Source of the DNA: a virus
Direction: 5' to 3' (one strand)
Length of the DNA stretch: 30,204 nt
IMG/VR virus record: IMGVR_UViG_3300009168_000094
Coordinates: 1-30,204 of that record
In this document: positions 11,356-26,049 of the stretch, piece after piece
Numbering within the stretch: position 1 is the first letter of the stretch
How the letters are laid out: each line of letters begins with the position of its first letter
Made by a program: the position numbers and the translations under genes
The notes under the pieces: generated by a model
Told to the model about the DNA's origin: nothing
Seen by the model: only the letters and a program-made list of their open reading frames with translations
The model's database searches: none

Positions 11356-11712
11356 ATGTCCACACGCCAAGCTGCCATCGCGGTCGGCCGACTTCCCACC
11401 CAGGTGAATCTGAGCGTGTACCAGGGGGATGACTTCTTTCTCAAGATAACGGTGGACGACACCACGTCCCCGGTCGACCTCACCACGTACACCGCCAAGG
11501 CCGAGATCCGATCGTCCGGCTCGACTCCGACGAAGACCGAGTTCGACGTCACCATCGTGGACGCCGTCACGTTGCTGCTGCACCTGACCAACGCCAATTC
11601 GTTGCTGCTGACCGGCAACGGGGTCTGGGACGTACAGGTAACCGATCCGACCGGCCTGGTGACCACGCTCGCGGGCGGTTCCCTGACTCTGGTGAAGGAC
11701 GTGACCAGATGA
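11356..11712 (+). CDS. LtfC/BppU-like beta-sandwich protein, copy 1 (118 aa)
   Basis: Contains the strand pattern LSVYQGDDFFLKITV, SPVDLTTYTAKAEIRSS and VWDVQVTD...VTTLAGG, ending in VTR. This matches the small beta-sandwich domain (LtfC or BppU N-terminal type) that joins phage fibres to baseplates or virion surfaces. The 115-residue protein at 12656 is a paralogue, sharing GDDF, PVDLT, TAK-x-EIR, VWD-x-QVTD and VTTLAGG. Its stop overlaps the collagen-fibre gene start (ATGA), so the two are likely stoichiometric partners. No good alternative start; the ATG follows GGGAAGGTGACC. Confidence 0.75.
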   Translation: MSTRQAAIAVGRLPTQVNLSVYQGDDFFLKITVDDTTSPVDLTTYTAKAEIRSSGSTPTKTEFDVTIVDAVTLLLHLTNANSLLLTGNGVWDVQVTDPTGLVTTLAGGSLTLVKDVTR

Positions 11713-12623
11713 GCGACAACGAGATCACGGTCTCCGCGCCAGGCGGTCCGGTCGTCGCTGACATCGTCGAGGTCGTGGTCGGTCCGCCCGGACCTGAAGG
11801 TCCCGCAGGGCCAGCGGGTGGCTCAACCAGCCTCCTGCCCTACACCCTGTCCGCCTCCACGACCGCGCCACCCGGTGACGGCAACGTGGGCCTGGACAAC
11901 GCCACCGCCCAGTCGGCGACCGCGATCCGGGCCAGCCTCGTGACCGCGGACGGCCAGAGCGCGCAGACCTCGCTGTATTTCCTGGACGCCGGGGACGCGG
12001 TGTCGTTGGAGTGGACGACCGCGCCTGCCAGCATCGGCTACAGCGTGACCGGCCCCATCGTTCAGCAGACGGGCTACATCGAGATCCCGGTGTCGTGGGT
12101 CTACGGATCGCCACCTCCGACCGGCCCGGTCTATCTGGGCCTGTTCCGCGTCGGCCCACAAGGCCCGCCCGGGAGCGGTAGCGGTGGCGCTGTCACACGT
12201 CAGTACGTCCAGGTGCGTCAGGCTGGCGCTACCCAGGATCTCCCCAGTGACACGTTCACCAAGATCGAGTGGGACACCGAAGACTTCGATCCAGACGCGA
12301 TGTTCGACGCCGCCTCCCCGACGAGACTCACCGCGCCCGTCGCCGGCGTCTACCGACTTGGTGGCGCCATCGCCATCTCGTTTGACGGTAACGGCTACCG
12401 GGCCGCGCACTGGGGGGTCAACGGCTCGATCGTCGCGCAGAGTCCAGCGGTATTCGTCGGGTCCAACGCCACCGGTGCCCACGTCATGTGCGTGTCGCTA
12501 CTGGTCAACCTCAACGCCGGCGACTACGTGGAGATGTTCGTGTTCCAGAACAGCGGCGTACTGCTGACCACGGTGACGGCGCCCAACTATCAGAGCTTCA
12601 TCAACATGATGCGCGAAGTCTAA
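11709..12623 (+). CDS. Collagen-like fibre with C1q-like tip, copy 1 (304 aa)
   Basis: After an N-terminal adaptor stretch (residues 1-24) come G-x-y triplets (GPPGPEGPAGPAGG, about 25-38), a beta-rich middle, a second short collagen stretch (GPQGPPGSGSGG, about 149-160), and a C-terminal jelly-roll (about 170-304) with LTAPVAGVYRLGGAIAIS and LVNLNAGDYVEMFVFQNSG, typical of C1q/TNF-like trimeric tips. The protein should be a trimeric fibre binding a surface ligand. It overlaps the beta-sandwich gene before it. Whether it decorates the head or the tail is not shown; its place among head genes favours the head. Confidence 0.75.
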   Translation: MSDNEITVSAPGGPVVADIVEVVVGPPGPEGPAGPAGGSTSLLPYTLSASTTAPPGDGNVGLDNATAQSATAIRASLVTADGQSAQTSLYFLDAGDAVSLEWTTAPASIGYSVTGPIVQQTGYIEIPVSWVYGSPPPTGPVYLGLFRVGPQGPPGSGSGGAVTRQYVQVRQAGATQDLPSDTFTKIEWDTEDFDPDAMFDAASPTRLTAPVAGVYRLGGAIAISFDGNGYRAAHWGVNGSIVAQSPAVFVGSNATGAHVMCVSLLVNLNAGDYVEMFVFQNSGVLLTTVTAPNYQSFINMMREV

Positions 12624-12655
12624 AACTCCACAGAGGACACCCTAGGGAGGGTGCT

Positions 12656-13003
12656 ATGGCAGTCACAGTTGGTGCCCTCCCCGCGGAGGTGGACGTCGCC
12701 CTCTATGCCGGGGACGACTTCGAGATGACAGTCAAGGTCTCCAACGCCGACGGCACTCCGGTGGACCTCACCGGCACCACGGCCAAGTCGGAGATCCGCG
12801 CCAACGCGGCGGCCACCGTGGTCCTGGCCACCTTCACCGTCACCGCCGTGGACTCCTCCACGTTCAAGCTGGTCCTCGACGGTGACGTCACGGCCGCTCT
12901 GCCGGCCAGCGCGGTCTGGGACCTCCAGGTGACCGACGCCGCCTCCAAGGTGACCACGCTCGCGGGCGGCAAGGTCAAGGTAACCGCGGAGGTGACGCGA
13001 TGA
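12656..13003 (+). CDS. LtfC/BppU-like beta-sandwich protein, copy 2 (115 aa)
   Basis: Paralogue of the gene at 11356. It shares [15 protein letters not shown] with its neighbour's LSVYQGDDF, then [31 protein letters not shown] and the VTR ending. ATG at 12656 has GGAGG six bases upstream; the longer ORF to 12488 is read-through. It ends in an ATGA overlap with the second, longer collagen fibre, exactly as in copy 1, so the pair is a duplicated unit. Probably links its fibre to the virion. Confidence 0.75.
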
Positions 13004-14430
13004 CCGACCACATCGTCAACGTCACCGTTGCAGCCAAGCCGACCGCGTTCATCGGCGTCAACCCGGGCGACGAGGGGCCTCCCGGGCCAGTGGGGCCGGC
13101 CGGACCGCAGGGACCCAAAGGCGACACGGGCAACACCGGTCCGACCGGGCCAGCCTCCACGGTGCCGGGACCGCAGGGGCCGAAAGGCGACACGGGTGCG
13201 ACCGGCCCGCAGGGTGCCGATTCCACGGTGCCGGGTCCGCCCGGAGGCCAGTGGGAAGAGGTCCGCGCGTACACGGTCACCACGAACAATGTCCCCACAC
13301 CGGTTGGTATCGCGGGCGGGTACGTGACGACCATTGCTGCTGGAGCGGGTGGCGGATCAGGACGTCGTGGCGCCGCTGGCACTATCCGATGTGGAGGGGG
13401 TGGAGGCGCATCCGGTCCGGCATACGTCGACTGCTGGATTCCTGCCGCCTCGTGGGGTGCCACCTATAGCGTGACGGTTGGCGCCGGTGGCCCTGGCGGT
13501 GCCGCTAGGACTACCGACGACACTGACGGTGCGGTAGGCGGTCAGGGTGGAATTAGCAGCCTAGTCTCTGGCCCTTCGAGCATCCTTTCGCCCAACAGCA
13601 TTGCGGGGAATGGTGGGTCGGCTACTGCCGGTACGGGAGGGGCGGCGTACTCGTCCGGATTCCAGGGTGTGGCTGGCGGTGCGGCCAGTACGACAGGTGG
13701 CGCCGGTAACGGGGGCGGCTGGGCGATCAATCAGCCGGGTAGCGGTGGCGCAGGTGGCGGAATCACTACCGCGAACGCGGCTTCGACTGGCGGTTCTGGC
13801 GGTTCAGCGCGGCCATGGACAAACATTGGTCCTGGCGTTGGGAATGTTGACGGAGCGTTGCCGGGCGCTGGAGTCAGTATCGGTGGCGGGACACCCTCTG
13901 CTGGCTGCTCTGGTGGCTGGTCGTCCGTTACTCAGGCGGCTGCGGCCGGAGCTAGCCCTACCGCAACGTCGTACGGCGCTGGTGGTGGCGGTGGTGGCGC
14001 GAGCCTCAACGGGTTCAACTCCGGCAAGGGTGGCGACGGTGGGCCGGGTTACGTCCGGATCCGCTTCGTCTACAACCCGAGTGCCGCGCCGGTCGACAAC
14101 GTCGAGTCGTATGTGGACCTCGGCGATAAGGCCGCTGGCTTCACGCTCGACTACAAGGCTGGGCGCTGGCAGAAGTTCCGGCTGACCAACAGCATCTCCA
14201 TTAACGGAATCAACAATCTGCCGACTGGCCCGATCGTGGGCACCCTCTTCCTGATGATCCAGCAGGACGCAACGGGTAACCGGGGAATCACGTGGCCAGG
14301 CACGTTTAAGTGGCCGCAAGGTGGACCGAACCCATACATCTCCGTGCAGCCCGCAGCCGTGGACGTCGTGCAGCTTGTCGTTATCAACGGCGTGGTGTAC
14401 GGCACGGTCGGCGCCTGGGGGTATCTGTGA
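13000..14430 (+). CDS. Collagen/glycine-rich fibre, copy 2 (476 aa)
   Basis: Residues about 23-83 are G-x-y collagen triplets broken by ASTVPG and DSTVPG. Residues about 85-110 are a short beta segment. Residues about 112-355 are extraordinarily rich in glycine and alanine (GGxGG, GAGG, GGGG, GGAG runs), like the polyglycine-II lattice of phage adhesins such as S16 gp38 (by resemblance). The C-terminal 120 residues ([20 protein letters not shown] and [13 protein letters not shown]) form a beta-rich tip known from other phage fibres. Ends in a GTGA overlap with the CBM-like gene. Likely a receptor-binding or head fibre. Confidence 0.75.
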
Positions 14431-22194: not shown

Positions 22195-22983
22195 GTGGCC
22201 AACACCGTCCTCGCCGAGGCACATCAGGCCGACGCCTACGTGTCGCTCCAGATCCAGTTCGACCCTGCCGTCACCGGGGTGTCGGTGCAACGCAAAGATC
22301 CCGAAGGCTGGACCGAACTGATCCGCTCCGGCGCGACGGTGCCACTGTCCGGGGGCTTCGCGGTCATCTACGACTACGAGGTCCCCCTGGACGTGGAGGT
22401 CAGCTACCTGGTCACCCAGGTGACACCGACCACGCAGACGCCGGCCACCGCGTCCTCGGCGGTGCTGAGCATCTACTCCAACGGCTACACCTGGCTCAAG
22501 GACCCGGGGCTGCCCTCCCGCAACATGCGCCTCACCGAGGTGGAGGGGATCAAAGACCTGACCCGACCGGCCAGGGCGGGCGTCTTCCACATCATCGACC
22601 GGACCCACCCGGTGGTCATTTCCGCCCGCCGAGAAGGCCGTCAGGGCGAGTTCGTCTTCACTACGACCACCGACCAGGACCGGCTCGACACCATCCTCAT
22701 CCTCAGCCGTGGCACGGTCCTGCTGTTGCAGACGCCGGACGGCTACGGGATGGGCTCCATCTACGTCCACGTGGGCGATGTGACCGAGTCGCGGCCAGGG
22801 GCGCTGGGGACCGAGGCAACTCGACGCTGGACCCTGCCGATCATCATGGTGGACCGTCCGGCCGGGTTGGCCACGATGCCGGTCAACAACACCTGGCAGA
22901 ACGTGAAGGACACGTACCTGGACTGGCAGACCCTCTACGACACCCGGCTGCGGTGGTGGCAGGTGGCGGAGGGCCAGCTATGA
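22195..22983 (+). CDS. Distal tail-like minor tail protein (262 aa)
   Basis: GTG at 22195 follows GGAGG five bases upstream. The protein is beta-rich; residues 1-90 contain VSLQIQFDPAVTGVSVQRKD and later YLVTQVTPTTQTPATAS, like a fibronectin-type strand set; the second half has VFHIIDRTHPVVISARREGR and WTLPIIMVDRPAGLA. Location just after the tape measure is where distal tail (Dit) proteins lie, forming the hub at the tail tip. The ATGA overlap at the end couples it to the next tail gene. Confidence 0.72.
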   Translation: MANTVLAEAHQADAYVSLQIQFDPAVTGVSVQRKDPEGWTELIRSGATVPLSGGFAVIYDYEVPLDVEVSYLVTQVTPTTQTPATASSAVLSIYSNGYTWLKDPGLPSRNMRLTEVEGIKDLTRPARAGVFHIIDRTHPVVISARREGRQGEFVFTTTTDQDRLDTILILSRGTVLLLQTPDGYGMGSIYVHVGDVTESRPGALGTEATRRWTLPIIMVDRPAGLATMPVNNTWQNVKDTYLDWQTLYDTRLRWWQVAEGQL

Positions 22984-24167
22984 CCCGTTACAGTGATCCG
23001 TTCCTGGAAGCTCTCATGTACAGCCACCAGGTCAGTGTCCGCGGTGAGTTGTGGCCGATCGGGGCGGTACGGGGGCTACCGCTGGCGATCGTGTCGGGCT
23101 CCGTCTCGGCCGACCGTAACGCGGTAGTCCGCCGCACGGCCCAACTCACCGTGGACCCCACCTTCGCACCCGCCTCGATCCACGACGCGCTGACGCCCTA
23201 CGGGGCGCAGATCAAGCTCTGGCGTGGCATCCGCTACATCAACGGCGCAGTCGAGGAGTATCCGATCTTCAACGGTCGGGTCGAGTCGGTCGACAACTCC
23301 ATCGACGGCATCAATGTCCGCGGCTCCGACCGGGCGGCCGACATCGTTGACGCCAAGTTCGCCACGCCCGCCGAAGGGGTGGCCTACTACGGCACCGGTA
23401 CCACCAAGGTCACCGAGGAAGCGAAGAAGTTCATCCTCCAGGTGGTCCCCACCGCCACCGTCACCATCAGATCCACGTCGAGCGCCTACGTCGGCCGGGC
23501 GATGACCAACGACCAGGACCGGGCCGACCTGGTCACCACGCTGGTTACCGCGGCCGGCGCGGAGTGGTACGCGGACCCGACCGGGGTCTTCTACATCGAC
23601 CCGCTGCCCGCCGTCATCTCGCCGACCACCCAGCCGGTCTGGATCGTCGACTCCGGCGACGTGGGCGTCACCATCGACCGGGCGGCAACCCTTGACCGTC
23701 AAGGCGTCTACAACCAGGTCGTGGTGGACGGGGAGGCGGTCGGCGGAACCCAGGGCGCACACAGTTTCTGGCACGTGCCTGGCGTCGGTGAACCCGAGTT
23801 TGACCCCAACAACCCGATGTACTACGGCGGACCGTACGGCAAGGTCACCGGCTTCTTCAGTGGCCAAGCGGTCAACTCCACCCAGGCTGCGCTCGACCTG
23901 GCCAAGGTGCTGTGCCTGAACTCGATCGCCAAGACCCGCTCCATCCAGGTCACCTGCGTACCCAACCCGAAACTCCGCCTCGGTGAGGTGGTCCGCGTCT
24001 ACGGGCTGAGCGAGGGGATCGACGGCATGTACTACGTCCAGCAGATGGAGCTACCGCTCGGCCCCGACGACGCGATGACGATGAGCCTCAACGAATCCGT
24101 GGAGTTGACATCCGCCAGCTACCGGATGGCCGGCCGTCGTATTCCCGAGGGGGCGTCATGGCCCTAG
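22980..24167 (+). CDS. Minor tail protein, DUF5047-like (395 aa)
   Basis: ATG at 22980 overlaps the previous stop; a longer ORF to 22161 is read-through. The start RYSDPFLEALMYSHQVSVRG, AIVSGSVSADRNAVVRRTAQ and YPIFNGRVESVDNSIDGIN match the N-terminal half of DUF5047-type tail proteins of actinophages. The middle and end (TLDRQGVYNQVVVDGEAVGG; KLRLGEVVRVYG) resemble tail-hub proteins such as gp27-like baseplate hubs. It probably joins the tube tip to the fibre proteins downstream. It overlaps the next gene by ten bases. Confidence 0.7.
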   Translation: MTRYSDPFLEALMYSHQVSVRGELWPIGAVRGLPLAIVSGSVSADRNAVVRRTAQLTVDPTFAPASIHDALTPYGAQIKLWRGIRYINGAVEEYPIFNGRVESVDNSIDGINVRGSDRAADIVDAKFATPAEGVAYYGTGTTKVTEEAKKFILQVVPTATVTIRSTSSAYVGRAMTNDQDRADLVTTLVTAAGAEWYADPTGVFYIDPLPAVISPTTQPVWIVDSGDVGVTIDRAATLDRQGVYNQVVVDGEAVGGTQGAHSFWHVPGVGEPEFDPNNPMYYGGPYGKVTGFFSGQAVNSTQAALDLAKVLCLNSIAKTRSIQVTCVPNPKLRLGEVVRVYGLSEGIDGMYYVQQMELPLGPDDAMTMSLNESVELTSASYRMAGRRIPEGASWP

Positions 24168-24415
24168 GCCGGATCAACCTCGTCGACGCCATCGCACAGC
24201 GCTCGGAGGCCATCGCCAGACAGAAGACGCTGACCCTTCGCATCGGCGTGGTGCAGATACCGCCCGCGCTGGCCAACGGTCTGGTCAACGTGGTCGTCGG
24301 CGGTGGCGCCATCCCGTGCGCCTATCTCACCAACTACGCGCCCGTCAACAACGACAAGGTCGTCCTCATGAACGAACGCGACATCTGGATCGTGGTCGGA
24401 AAACTCGTCGCCTGA
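24158..24415 (+). CDS. Small tail-associated protein (85 aa)
   Basis: ATG at 24158 lies within the previous gene's end, with GGGGGCGT before it as ribosome site. An N-terminal helix (NLVDAIAQRSEAIARQK) is followed by strands (TLRIGVVQIPP, LVNVVVGGGAIPCAYLTNYA, DKVVLMNERDIWIVVGKLV). The final block (PVNNDKVVLM...D-WIVVGKL) is a common ending of small tail-tip proteins in actinophages and suggests an OB-like strand set. Probably a minor tail-tip part; unproven. Confidence 0.7.
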   Translation: MALGRINLVDAIAQRSEAIARQKTLTLRIGVVQIPPALANGLVNVVVGGGAIPCAYLTNYAPVNNDKVVLMNERDIWIVVGKLVA

Positions 24416-24425
24416 AAGGAAAGTC

Positions 24426-25064
24426 ATGCCCGGTACACCTACGCCGTACTACGGCTTTCCCATCCCGGCCGACAACGATCCCGCCGATGCTCCCCACGAC
24501 TTCCAGGCGCTCGCGCAGAAGGTCGAGGACACCCTGAAGAACGGGTACACGATCCCGAGCGGCAGCCTGACGATAGGTGATCCCGTCGCCGGCGTCGGTG
24601 CTCAGTATCTAGCGCTGTCAAAGAAGGTTGCCACTGATGTTCTGGAGTTGCGTTTCGTCTGGTACAACGACGGCCTGCTCATCCAGGGCAACAAGAACAA
24701 CGCCCAGGATCCGGCAAGGGCCAGCTACGTGCTCGGTACCGACGGCGCTATCACGGCCTACACCTACACGCCATCCACGGTAGGTCGCCCAGTTCCGTTC
24801 GCGATGTACGCCTACCAGGCAAGCGTGGTGTTCTCGAACGCGGTCGCAAGCACGGCCGTGGTCACTTATCCAGCGGGAAGGTTCACCCAGAACCCCACCG
24901 TGCAATGTACGTCGATGAACTCCAACTTTCACGCCACCTTGACGTCGGGAGCCACGACTTCAGTAACCATCGCGGCACGTCATGTAGACAACACCGCTTC
25001 TTCGGTCACCATCGGCGTTCAAGTTCTCGCCGTCCAGATGACGCCGACGTCAGGGCCGGGGTGA
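24426..25064 (+). CDS. Tail fibre/tip protein, copy 1 (212 aa)
   Basis: GAAAGGAAAGTC precedes ATG at 24426. The N-terminal 50 residues (TPYYGFPIPADNDPADAPHD and QALAQKVEDTLKNGYTIP) are nearly the same as those of the gene at 25231, so the two are paralogues. The rest is beta-rich (VTYPAGRFTQNPTVQCTS), ending QMTPTSGPG. Proteins starting with YYGFP-x-P-x-xNDP-ADAPHD are tail-tip proteins that begin with a short attachment segment. The linked small gene at 25064 corresponds to the C-terminal tail of copy 2. Confidence 0.75.
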   Translation: MPGTPTPYYGFPIPADNDPADAPHDFQALAQKVEDTLKNGYTIPSGSLTIGDPVAGVGAQYLALSKKVATDVLELRFVWYNDGLLIQGNKNNAQDPARASYVLGTDGAITAYTYTPSTVGRPVPFAMYAYQASVVFSNAVASTAVVTYPAGRFTQNPTVQCTSMNSNFHATLTSGATTSVTIAARHVDNTASSVTIGVQVLAVQMTPTSGPG

Positions 25065-25231
25065 TGACAGTGCAGCCAGATCAAGAACTCCTTGAACGAG
25101 TCGCGACCTGTCACACCGAGGATTGCGTCAACGTGGATATTCCGATCTCGGTCATGCTGGTGGACGAGAACACCGCGGTGTACTGCGGCCCGTGCGGTCA
25201 GCCTATTGACGATGTCGAGGAGGGGTCCTAA
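25064..25231 (+). CDS. Four-cysteine knuckle protein (55 aa), detached from copy 1
   Basis: ATG at 25064 overlaps the preceding stop by one base (TGATG); GTG at 25061 is an alternative. It encodes ATCHTEDC...VMLVDENTAVYCGPCGQPI. Two cysteine pairs (C-x4-C and C-x2-C) would bind a metal. The same sequence with small changes ends the fused paralogue at 25231. It may be incorporated into the tail tip as a partner of copy 1. Confidence 0.75.
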   Translation: MTVQPDQELLERVATCHTEDCVNVDIPISVMLVDENTAVYCGPCGQPIDDVEEGS

Positions 25232-26049
25232 TGCCGGATACCCCTACCGCCTACTACGGCTTTCCGATTCCCGCCGCTAACGATCCCGCTGATGCGCCGC
25301 ATGACTTCCGGGCGTTGGCGCAAAAGATCGAGGACACCCTGCACGACGGCTATACGATTCCCAACGGTGGCCTCTACATCGGTACTCCGACCACGCCTCA
25401 GTCTCGGGTCAGCCTCACTCTGGAAAGCCTGCTCTCCGGCGCCGACTTCATTGAGGGCCACTACCAAGGGGCATCGTGGAATGCGCCTACTCAGGACACG
25501 TCCGGCTTCGGCTCGGTATGGGTTCTCATCAAGAACGGCGCCGAGGTTAACCGCCTCGTTCTCGCTCAGGATGGCGCGGTCTACACCCGCACGGTAGCCA
25601 ACCTCTATCGGCCGTTCCCTTATGCGATGGCGACGGGTAGCGCTGCGCTTGCCATTACTGCTGCGGCAAGTGCCACGGTGGCCATCTCACACCCGAGTGG
25701 TCGATTCACGCAGAGCCCGATCTGCACGGCTGGGTTTGTCAGCAACGGCAACTACTACACGTGGATCGTCAGCGGAAGCACGACAAGCTGCACGGTCGGT
25801 GCCCGTCATTTCGATAACGCCGTGGCCACCTATACCGGCACGATGTGGCTACAGGCGATTCAGATGACCCCTACCGCGAGTGTGGGCTTGCGAGCATCGG
25901 CCGACGATTCGTCAACGCACCTGGCCACGTGTCAAACGGATGGCTGTATGAATGCCGGCGAGTCGCTGGGTGTCCTTCTCGTGGACGAGAACACCGCGGT
26001 GGTATGCGGTCCGTGTGGCCAGCCCATTGAAGACGTCGTGGAGGCGTAA
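25231..26049 (+). CDS. Tail fibre/tip protein, copy 2, with fused Cys4 knuckle (272 aa)
   Basis: ATG at 25231 follows GAGGGGTC and overlaps the previous stop by one base. Residues 1-50 (TAYYGFPIPAANDPADAPHD and RALAQKIEDTLHDGYTIP) closely match copy 1. The middle is beta-rich (SHPSGRFTQSPICTAGF). After a linker (about 220-230) the last 42 residues (ATCQTDGCMNAG...LLVDENTAVVCGPCGQPIED) equal the separate 55-residue protein at 25064. Thus two genes of copy 1 are one gene here. Function likely receptor contact at the tail tip. Confidence 0.75.
   Translation: MPDTPTAYYGFPIPAANDPADAPHDFRALAQKIEDTLHDGYTIPNGGLYIGTPTTPQSRVSLTLESLLSGADFIEGHYQGASWNAPTQDTSGFGSVWVLIKNGAEVNRLVLAQDGAVYTRTVANLYRPFPYAMATGSAALAITAAASATVAISHPSGRFTQSPICTAGFVSNGNYYTWIVSGSTTSCTVGARHFDNAVATYTGTMWLQAIQMTPTASVGLRASADDSSTHLATCQTDGCMNAGESLGVLLVDENTAVVCGPCGQPIEDVVEA

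Follow-up and report, generated by a model that had tools for sequence, protein, structure and literature searches.

Two adjacent sets of tail fibre genes were found in a 30,204-base viral DNA (the whole stretch analysed, referred to as the window), and they probably represent a tandem-duplicated receptor-binding cassette, in which a lectin-like tip is accompanied by a candidate zinc-binding Cys4 partner that would serve as a structural cap or folding clamp. The window offers a natural side-by-side comparison of a separate and a fused form of the Cys4 module.

Organisation of the duplicated fibre genes

The open reading frames coincided exactly with the layout proposed in an earlier note, with two genes in copy 1 (copies 1a and 1b) and a single gene in copy 2 (Table 1). 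The A of the copy 1a stop codon, TGA, opens the ATG of copy 1b, and this overlap is predicted to couple translation of the two proteins. The ATG of copy 2 in turn begins on the final base of the copy 1b stop codon. The hub protein encoded upstream shared 32% identity with the protein annotated as baseplate hub in Streptomyces phage Samy, and the order of hub, a protein of ~85 aa and a next tail gene is common to the window, Samy, Nesbitt and Shagrat. The Samy gene that follows gp24 is annotated as related to the receptor-binding protein of Listeria phage PSA. Since the genes upstream encode the hub and a protein positioned like Samy gp24, and the next gene in Samy is receptor-binding-like, the cassette appears to occupy a receptor-binding slot. 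Although gene order in Samy and Nesbitt is like that of the window, neither the lectin domain nor Cys4 was detected by HMM in the proteins occupying this slot in the two phages. Downstream of the cassette lies a gene for a tyrosine integrase.

Table 1. Positions of the fibre cassette, its parts and its upstream neighbours in the window
Feature	Position	Strand	Basis
Baseplate hub protein (DUF5047; PHROG 1887 tail protein), immediately upstream of the 85-aa protein and cassette	22980-24167	+	Pfam PF16466 E 2e-15; PHROG 1887 E 1e-38
Small tail protein of 85 aa, positioned like Samy gp24 (annotated as putative tail protein)	24158-24415	+	gene order; weak PHROG 12764 match
Copy 1a, tail fibre, 212 aa	24426-25064	+	ORF, copy alignment, lectin HMM
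Copy 1a N-terminal anchor	24426-24578	+	
Copy 1a variable middle	24579-24728	+	
Copy 1a lectin-like domain	~24786-25061	+	lectin HMM 93.7 bits at 24789-25061
TGATG, 1-nt stop/start overlap of copies 1a and 1b	25062-25066	+	sequence
Copy 1b, separate Cys4 protein, 55 aa; C16, C21, C41, C44	25064-25231	+	alignment, HMM
Strong Shine-Dalgarno-like gaggagggg for copy 2, within the copy 1b 3' end	25217-25225	+	sequence
Copy 2, fused fibre, 272 aa, single gene	25231-26049	+	ORF, alignment, AF2
Copy 2 N-terminal anchor, residues 1-51; 80% identical to copy 1a	25231-25383	+	
Copy 2 variable middle, residues 52-109; similarity to copy 1a undetectable, model confidence low in part	25384-25557	+	
Copy 2 predicted H-type-lectin-like tip domain, residues 127-214	25609-25872	+	AF2, fold matches, lectin HMM 92.6 bits
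Copy 2 linker, residues 215-228, low model confidence	25873-25914	+	AF2
Copy 2 fused Cys4 domain, residues 229-272; C234, C239, C259, C262	25915-26046	+	alignment, HMM, AF2

Similarity between the copies and age of the duplication

Pairwise alignment gave a local score of 418 for copy 1a against copy 2 (shuffled sequences: mean 38, maximum 72) and of 149 for copy 1b against copy 2 (mean 26, maximum 49). Similarity was thus far above that of shuffled sequences and not limited to short chance matches, and chance similarity of the copies is ruled out. The close matches described earlier in the first 50 residues and in the Cys4 knuckle were confirmed, with gapless identities of 80% over anchor residues 1-51 and 65% over a 40-residue Cys4 block. 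The earlier note had also described the middles as different. This was correct for a stretch of ~50-58 aa (copy 1 residues 52-101 against copy 2 residues 52-109), in which 56% of shuffles scored equally high, but not beyond it, where a third conserved block (RPxPxAM...GRFTQxP...ARHxDN...AxQMTP) had been missed. This block, 39% and 49% identical between the copies in two gapless pieces, scored 192 against a shuffled maximum of 67, and corresponds to the lectin-like domain (copy 2 residues ~127-214, ~40% identical to copy 1).

Synonymous sites have reached saturation between the copies (dS ~1.2 or more, with a dN of 0.13 in the anchor), which makes the duplication an old one. At residues conserved between the copies, the same codon was used at 21 of 40 positions in the anchor, where independent codon choice predicts 20.95, at 15 of 26 in Cys4 (13.5 expected) and at 12 of 32 in the lectin domain (13.6 expected); comparison of the ends with the lectin domain gave p = 0.13. 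Since codon identity equalled the expectation for independent choice, purifying selection, acting since an old duplication, explains why the ends are conserved. With same-codon use at saturation in the anchor, Cys4 and lectin domains, the ends were judged not to have recombined or undergone gene conversion recently, and the codon comparison of both copies showed no sign of a recent swap of modules. The idea of middles that are exchanged between preserved ends therefore found no support, codon identity being at the independent-choice level in both ends and in the lectin domain. Searches with either copy, the alignment of the copies or the adjacent hub protein retrieved no near relative of the window from viral contigs, nor was any found among genome contigs; one candidate relative (L008) was rejected as a 13-residue chance match.

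A predicted lectin-like domain at the fibre tip

Copy 2 was modelled with AF2 as a predicted monomer from a 42-row alignment. The pLDDT was mostly ~85-97 by block for residues 127-214 and ~90 for the Cys4 domain (229-272), and mostly <50 in the middle (49-90); the pTM was 0.40 and the linker pLDDT low, and the model did not clearly place Cys4 relative to the lectin domain. The AF2 model of copy 1b had a mean pLDDT of 90.4. The best fold match of residues 127-214 in the PDB was the C-terminal domain of the LKA1 gp49 tailspike, and the three top matches (Z 10.5, 10.1 and 9.4) were all tailspike C-terminal domains (LKA1 gp49, phi297 gp61 and AP22 gp54). Discoidin H-type lectin domains and snail agglutinins followed with Z scores of 7.7-8.8, and an R-pyocin fibre tip was also matched. 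Residues 127-214 are thus confidently predicted to fold as an H-type-lectin-like jelly-roll tip.

Among 42 relatives, Pfam H_lectin (PF09458) matched five (best E 8.3e-5) and Gp53-like_C (PF21882) four (best E 0.0088). The fibre proteins of the window had no significant Pfam match, and PDB sequence searches with profiles yielded nothing credible. The same structural relatives have been reported for the R-pyocin foot, which was proposed as the primary sugar-binding domain (PMC6363177) and has been termed lectin-like (PMC6116203). Since the C-terminal domain of the window fibres shares this predicted lectin fold with the R-pyocin foot, we consider that the conserved C-terminal domain, and not the variable middle, is likely to be the receptor-binding part. 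The R-pyocin foot, AP22 gp53/gp54 and LKA1 gp49 resemble the window in carrying a jelly-roll at the fibre C-terminus (predicted in the window; Z 6.4-10.5 over 75-85 residues), but the window lectin domains lack a Pfam match of their own and have a Cys4 module behind or fused to them. To our knowledge, a Cys4 module next to a lectin-like tip has not been reported for the R-pyocin, AP22 or LKA1 structures.

The Cys4 module is linked to the lectin-like tip

An alignment of Cys4 alone was used as the query and retrieved 56 IMG/VR loci, and all loci retrieved were scanned with two separate HMMs, one for the Cys4 domain and one for the lectin-like domain. From these loci, named Microbacterium and Brevibacterium phages and the window, 48 distinct instances of Cys4 were obtained, every one of which (48/48) was directly downstream of, or fused to, a lectin-like domain. 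This included 35 instances that were not seeds of the lectin HMM, yet had a lectin domain directly upstream or in frame. A lectin match beyond the Cys4-linked one was seen at only one of the loci (L064). The anchor domain of the window was present in only 28 of 61 Cys4-bearing sources, indicating that Cys4 follows the lectin tip and not the anchor; many relatives of ~120 aa lack the middle and keep the tip and Cys4. The earlier proposal that the small Cys4 protein belongs with the fibre is therefore well supported by gene linkage, and by fusions in three other contigs.

The lectin and Cys4 pair was present in Microbacterium phages Johnathan, Slay, Floof and Efeko and in Brevibacterium phage LuckyBarnes, where the lectin domain ends quite different proteins, such as a Sipho_Gp37 hub-type protein. 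In phages such as Johnathan and Slay, the minor tail protein gp18 and gp19 show a lectin-like tip followed by a coupled Cys4 gene, as in copy 1. However, the tip there ends a Sipho_Gp37 hub-type protein of ~656 aa in a single split copy, while the window has a small stand-alone fibre that is duplicated, with one copy fused. The Cys4 gene of the Microbacterium phages (gp19 and similar) is annotated mostly as 'hypothetical protein'. Strict linkage and natural fusions tie this small unnamed gene, carried by dozens of Microbacterium phages, to the putative receptor-binding tail tip.

A lectin tip lacking Cys4 was found between matching neighbours in Curtobacterium phage Buldak, so the partner is not required by every lectin tip of this kind. 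Buldak and Microbacterium phage Johnathan form a natural plus/minus pair for Cys4, sharing an upstream lectin-tipped minor tail protein and, nearby downstream, a YPFDAQ minor tail protein.

The Cys4 motif is CxTxxCxN...CGxC, with C16, T18, C21, N23, C41, G42 and C44 invariant in an alignment of 44 sequences, and the module is probably zinc-binding. No Pfam, NCBIfam or PHROG model covered the family well, the best matches being weak. In fold searches with Cys4 alone the best Z was 3.5 and no known fold was assigned, which does not imply that the fold is new. Full-text searches found no literature on the family, and zinc was not mentioned in two mycobacteriophage cryo-EM papers.

Separate and fused forms of Cys4

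The split form was seen in 44 of the 48 distinct instances and the fused form in four, namely copy 2 of the window and three other contigs (L023, L025 and L051). In split members the offset between the end of the fibre gene's stop codon and the Cys4 start was -7 to +28 nt. The window copies were each other's best pairwise match in both the lectin and Cys4 domains, whereas L023 and L051 were placed elsewhere in the trees, which suggests that fusion arose at least twice; these trees were built from short sequences and their support is weak, as it is for the nesting of L025 with the window lectin domains.

Proposed role of the cassette and alternative explanations

We propose that the N-terminal anchor attaches the fibre to the tail and that the short divergent segment would connect it to the tip, the H-type-lectin-like jelly-roll forming the fibre end and presumably binding cell-wall or surface glycans. 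In copy 1, Cys4 is encoded as a separate, translationally coupled protein, as is the norm in the family, and in copy 2 it is now the fibre's own C-terminal domain. In either form it may bind the lectin tip at ~1:1, in the finished fibre or during assembly, and with the duplicate the virion could bear two related tips whose sugar preferences have diverged. A stoichiometric, attached role of Cys4 is the more likely because a fused form exists. More speculatively, and with considerable doubt on our part, Cys4 might be an uncatalogued small zinc-binding family that caps the extreme end of lectin-tipped fibres, in actinobacterial phages and in many uncultured ones, aids receptor recognition and repeatedly switches between separate and fused states, both of which are seen here.

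Cys4 could instead be an assembly chaperone, either Tfa-like or C-terminal and intramolecular, responsible for folding or trimerising the lectin tip and absent from the virion, or present there only transiently; fusion would then yield an intramolecular chaperone. We regard this as possible but doubtful. A gene directly behind that of the fibre, with coupled translation, is typical of cognate chaperones, and Cys4 is indeed encoded directly downstream of the fibre or fused C-terminally. Chaperones that stay bound as caps have also been described, and Mu Tfa and the cap-retained chaperones of Alteromonas phage V22/A5 resemble Cys4 in being small proteins encoded just behind the fibre and thought to be located at the tip (PMC10579305). 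However, Cys4 has no sequence match to Tfa-type chaperones, is much smaller and has four cysteines in place of a chaperone fold; known intramolecular chaperones have a helical core and beta-hairpin tentacles (PMC10579305), which ~40 residues could not accommodate. The listed Pfam (E up to 0.5) and PHROG matches of the 42 relatives included no family of tail fibre assembly or intramolecular chaperones, and a fused Cys4, being stoichiometric and attached, also argues against a chaperone. It is very unlikely that the Cys4 gene is an unrelated passenger, such as a regulator, whose place beside the fibre gene is incidental. Small zinc-ribbon-like proteins often bind nucleic acids, and the weak best fold matches of Cys4 were ribosomal zinc ribbons, at a Z of ~3 that is not meaningful; set against this are the constant linkage to the lectin domain in diverse phages with differing downstream genes, and the in-frame fusions.

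The view that the variable middle binds the receptor and the conserved ends are structural, put forward in the earlier note, is in our judgement improbable. In phages, host range is often determined by variable regions, and the middle is the sole stretch without similarity between the copies. It is nevertheless short, is modelled with low confidence and is missing in many relatives that keep the lectin tip and Cys4, while the only region with a receptor-binding fold, as predicted, is the conserved C-terminal domain, which has a known sugar-binding fold and is itself only ~40% identical between the copies. Finally, the window derives from one virus record, with no second copy of the genome for comparison, and one indel would make the copies look alike, so that the split and fused states might reflect an error of sequencing or assembly. 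This is scarcely credible, given that the split form is the norm, that the fused form recurs in three other contigs with similar linkers and that the copies share no near-identical stretch of the kind left by misassembly. The tie between Cys4 and the lectin tip gives a specific partner protein to add in expression or imaging of such fibres, and a marker for locating the receptor-binding protein in uncultured phages.

Other duplicated modules

A second duplicated tail module was seen in the window, well upstream of the tape measure gene (11356-11712 with 11709-12623, and ~12653-13003 with 13000-14430). Its small proteins are clearly paralogous (local score 220, shuffled maximum 58), and directly behind each lies a larger fibre gene of collagen-like type (GxxGPxG). 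Another duplicated cassette was present at L064 (4900-6156), where two tandem lectin-tipped fibre genes share their N-terminal anchor but only one has a long middle; a single Cys4 gene follows them. In IMGVR_UViG_3300010970_000183, the fibre-Cys4 region occurs twice on a 24-kb contig (L019 and L020), ~14.9 kb apart and 94% identical over ~6.2 kb, which represents either a repeat or a chimeric assembly.
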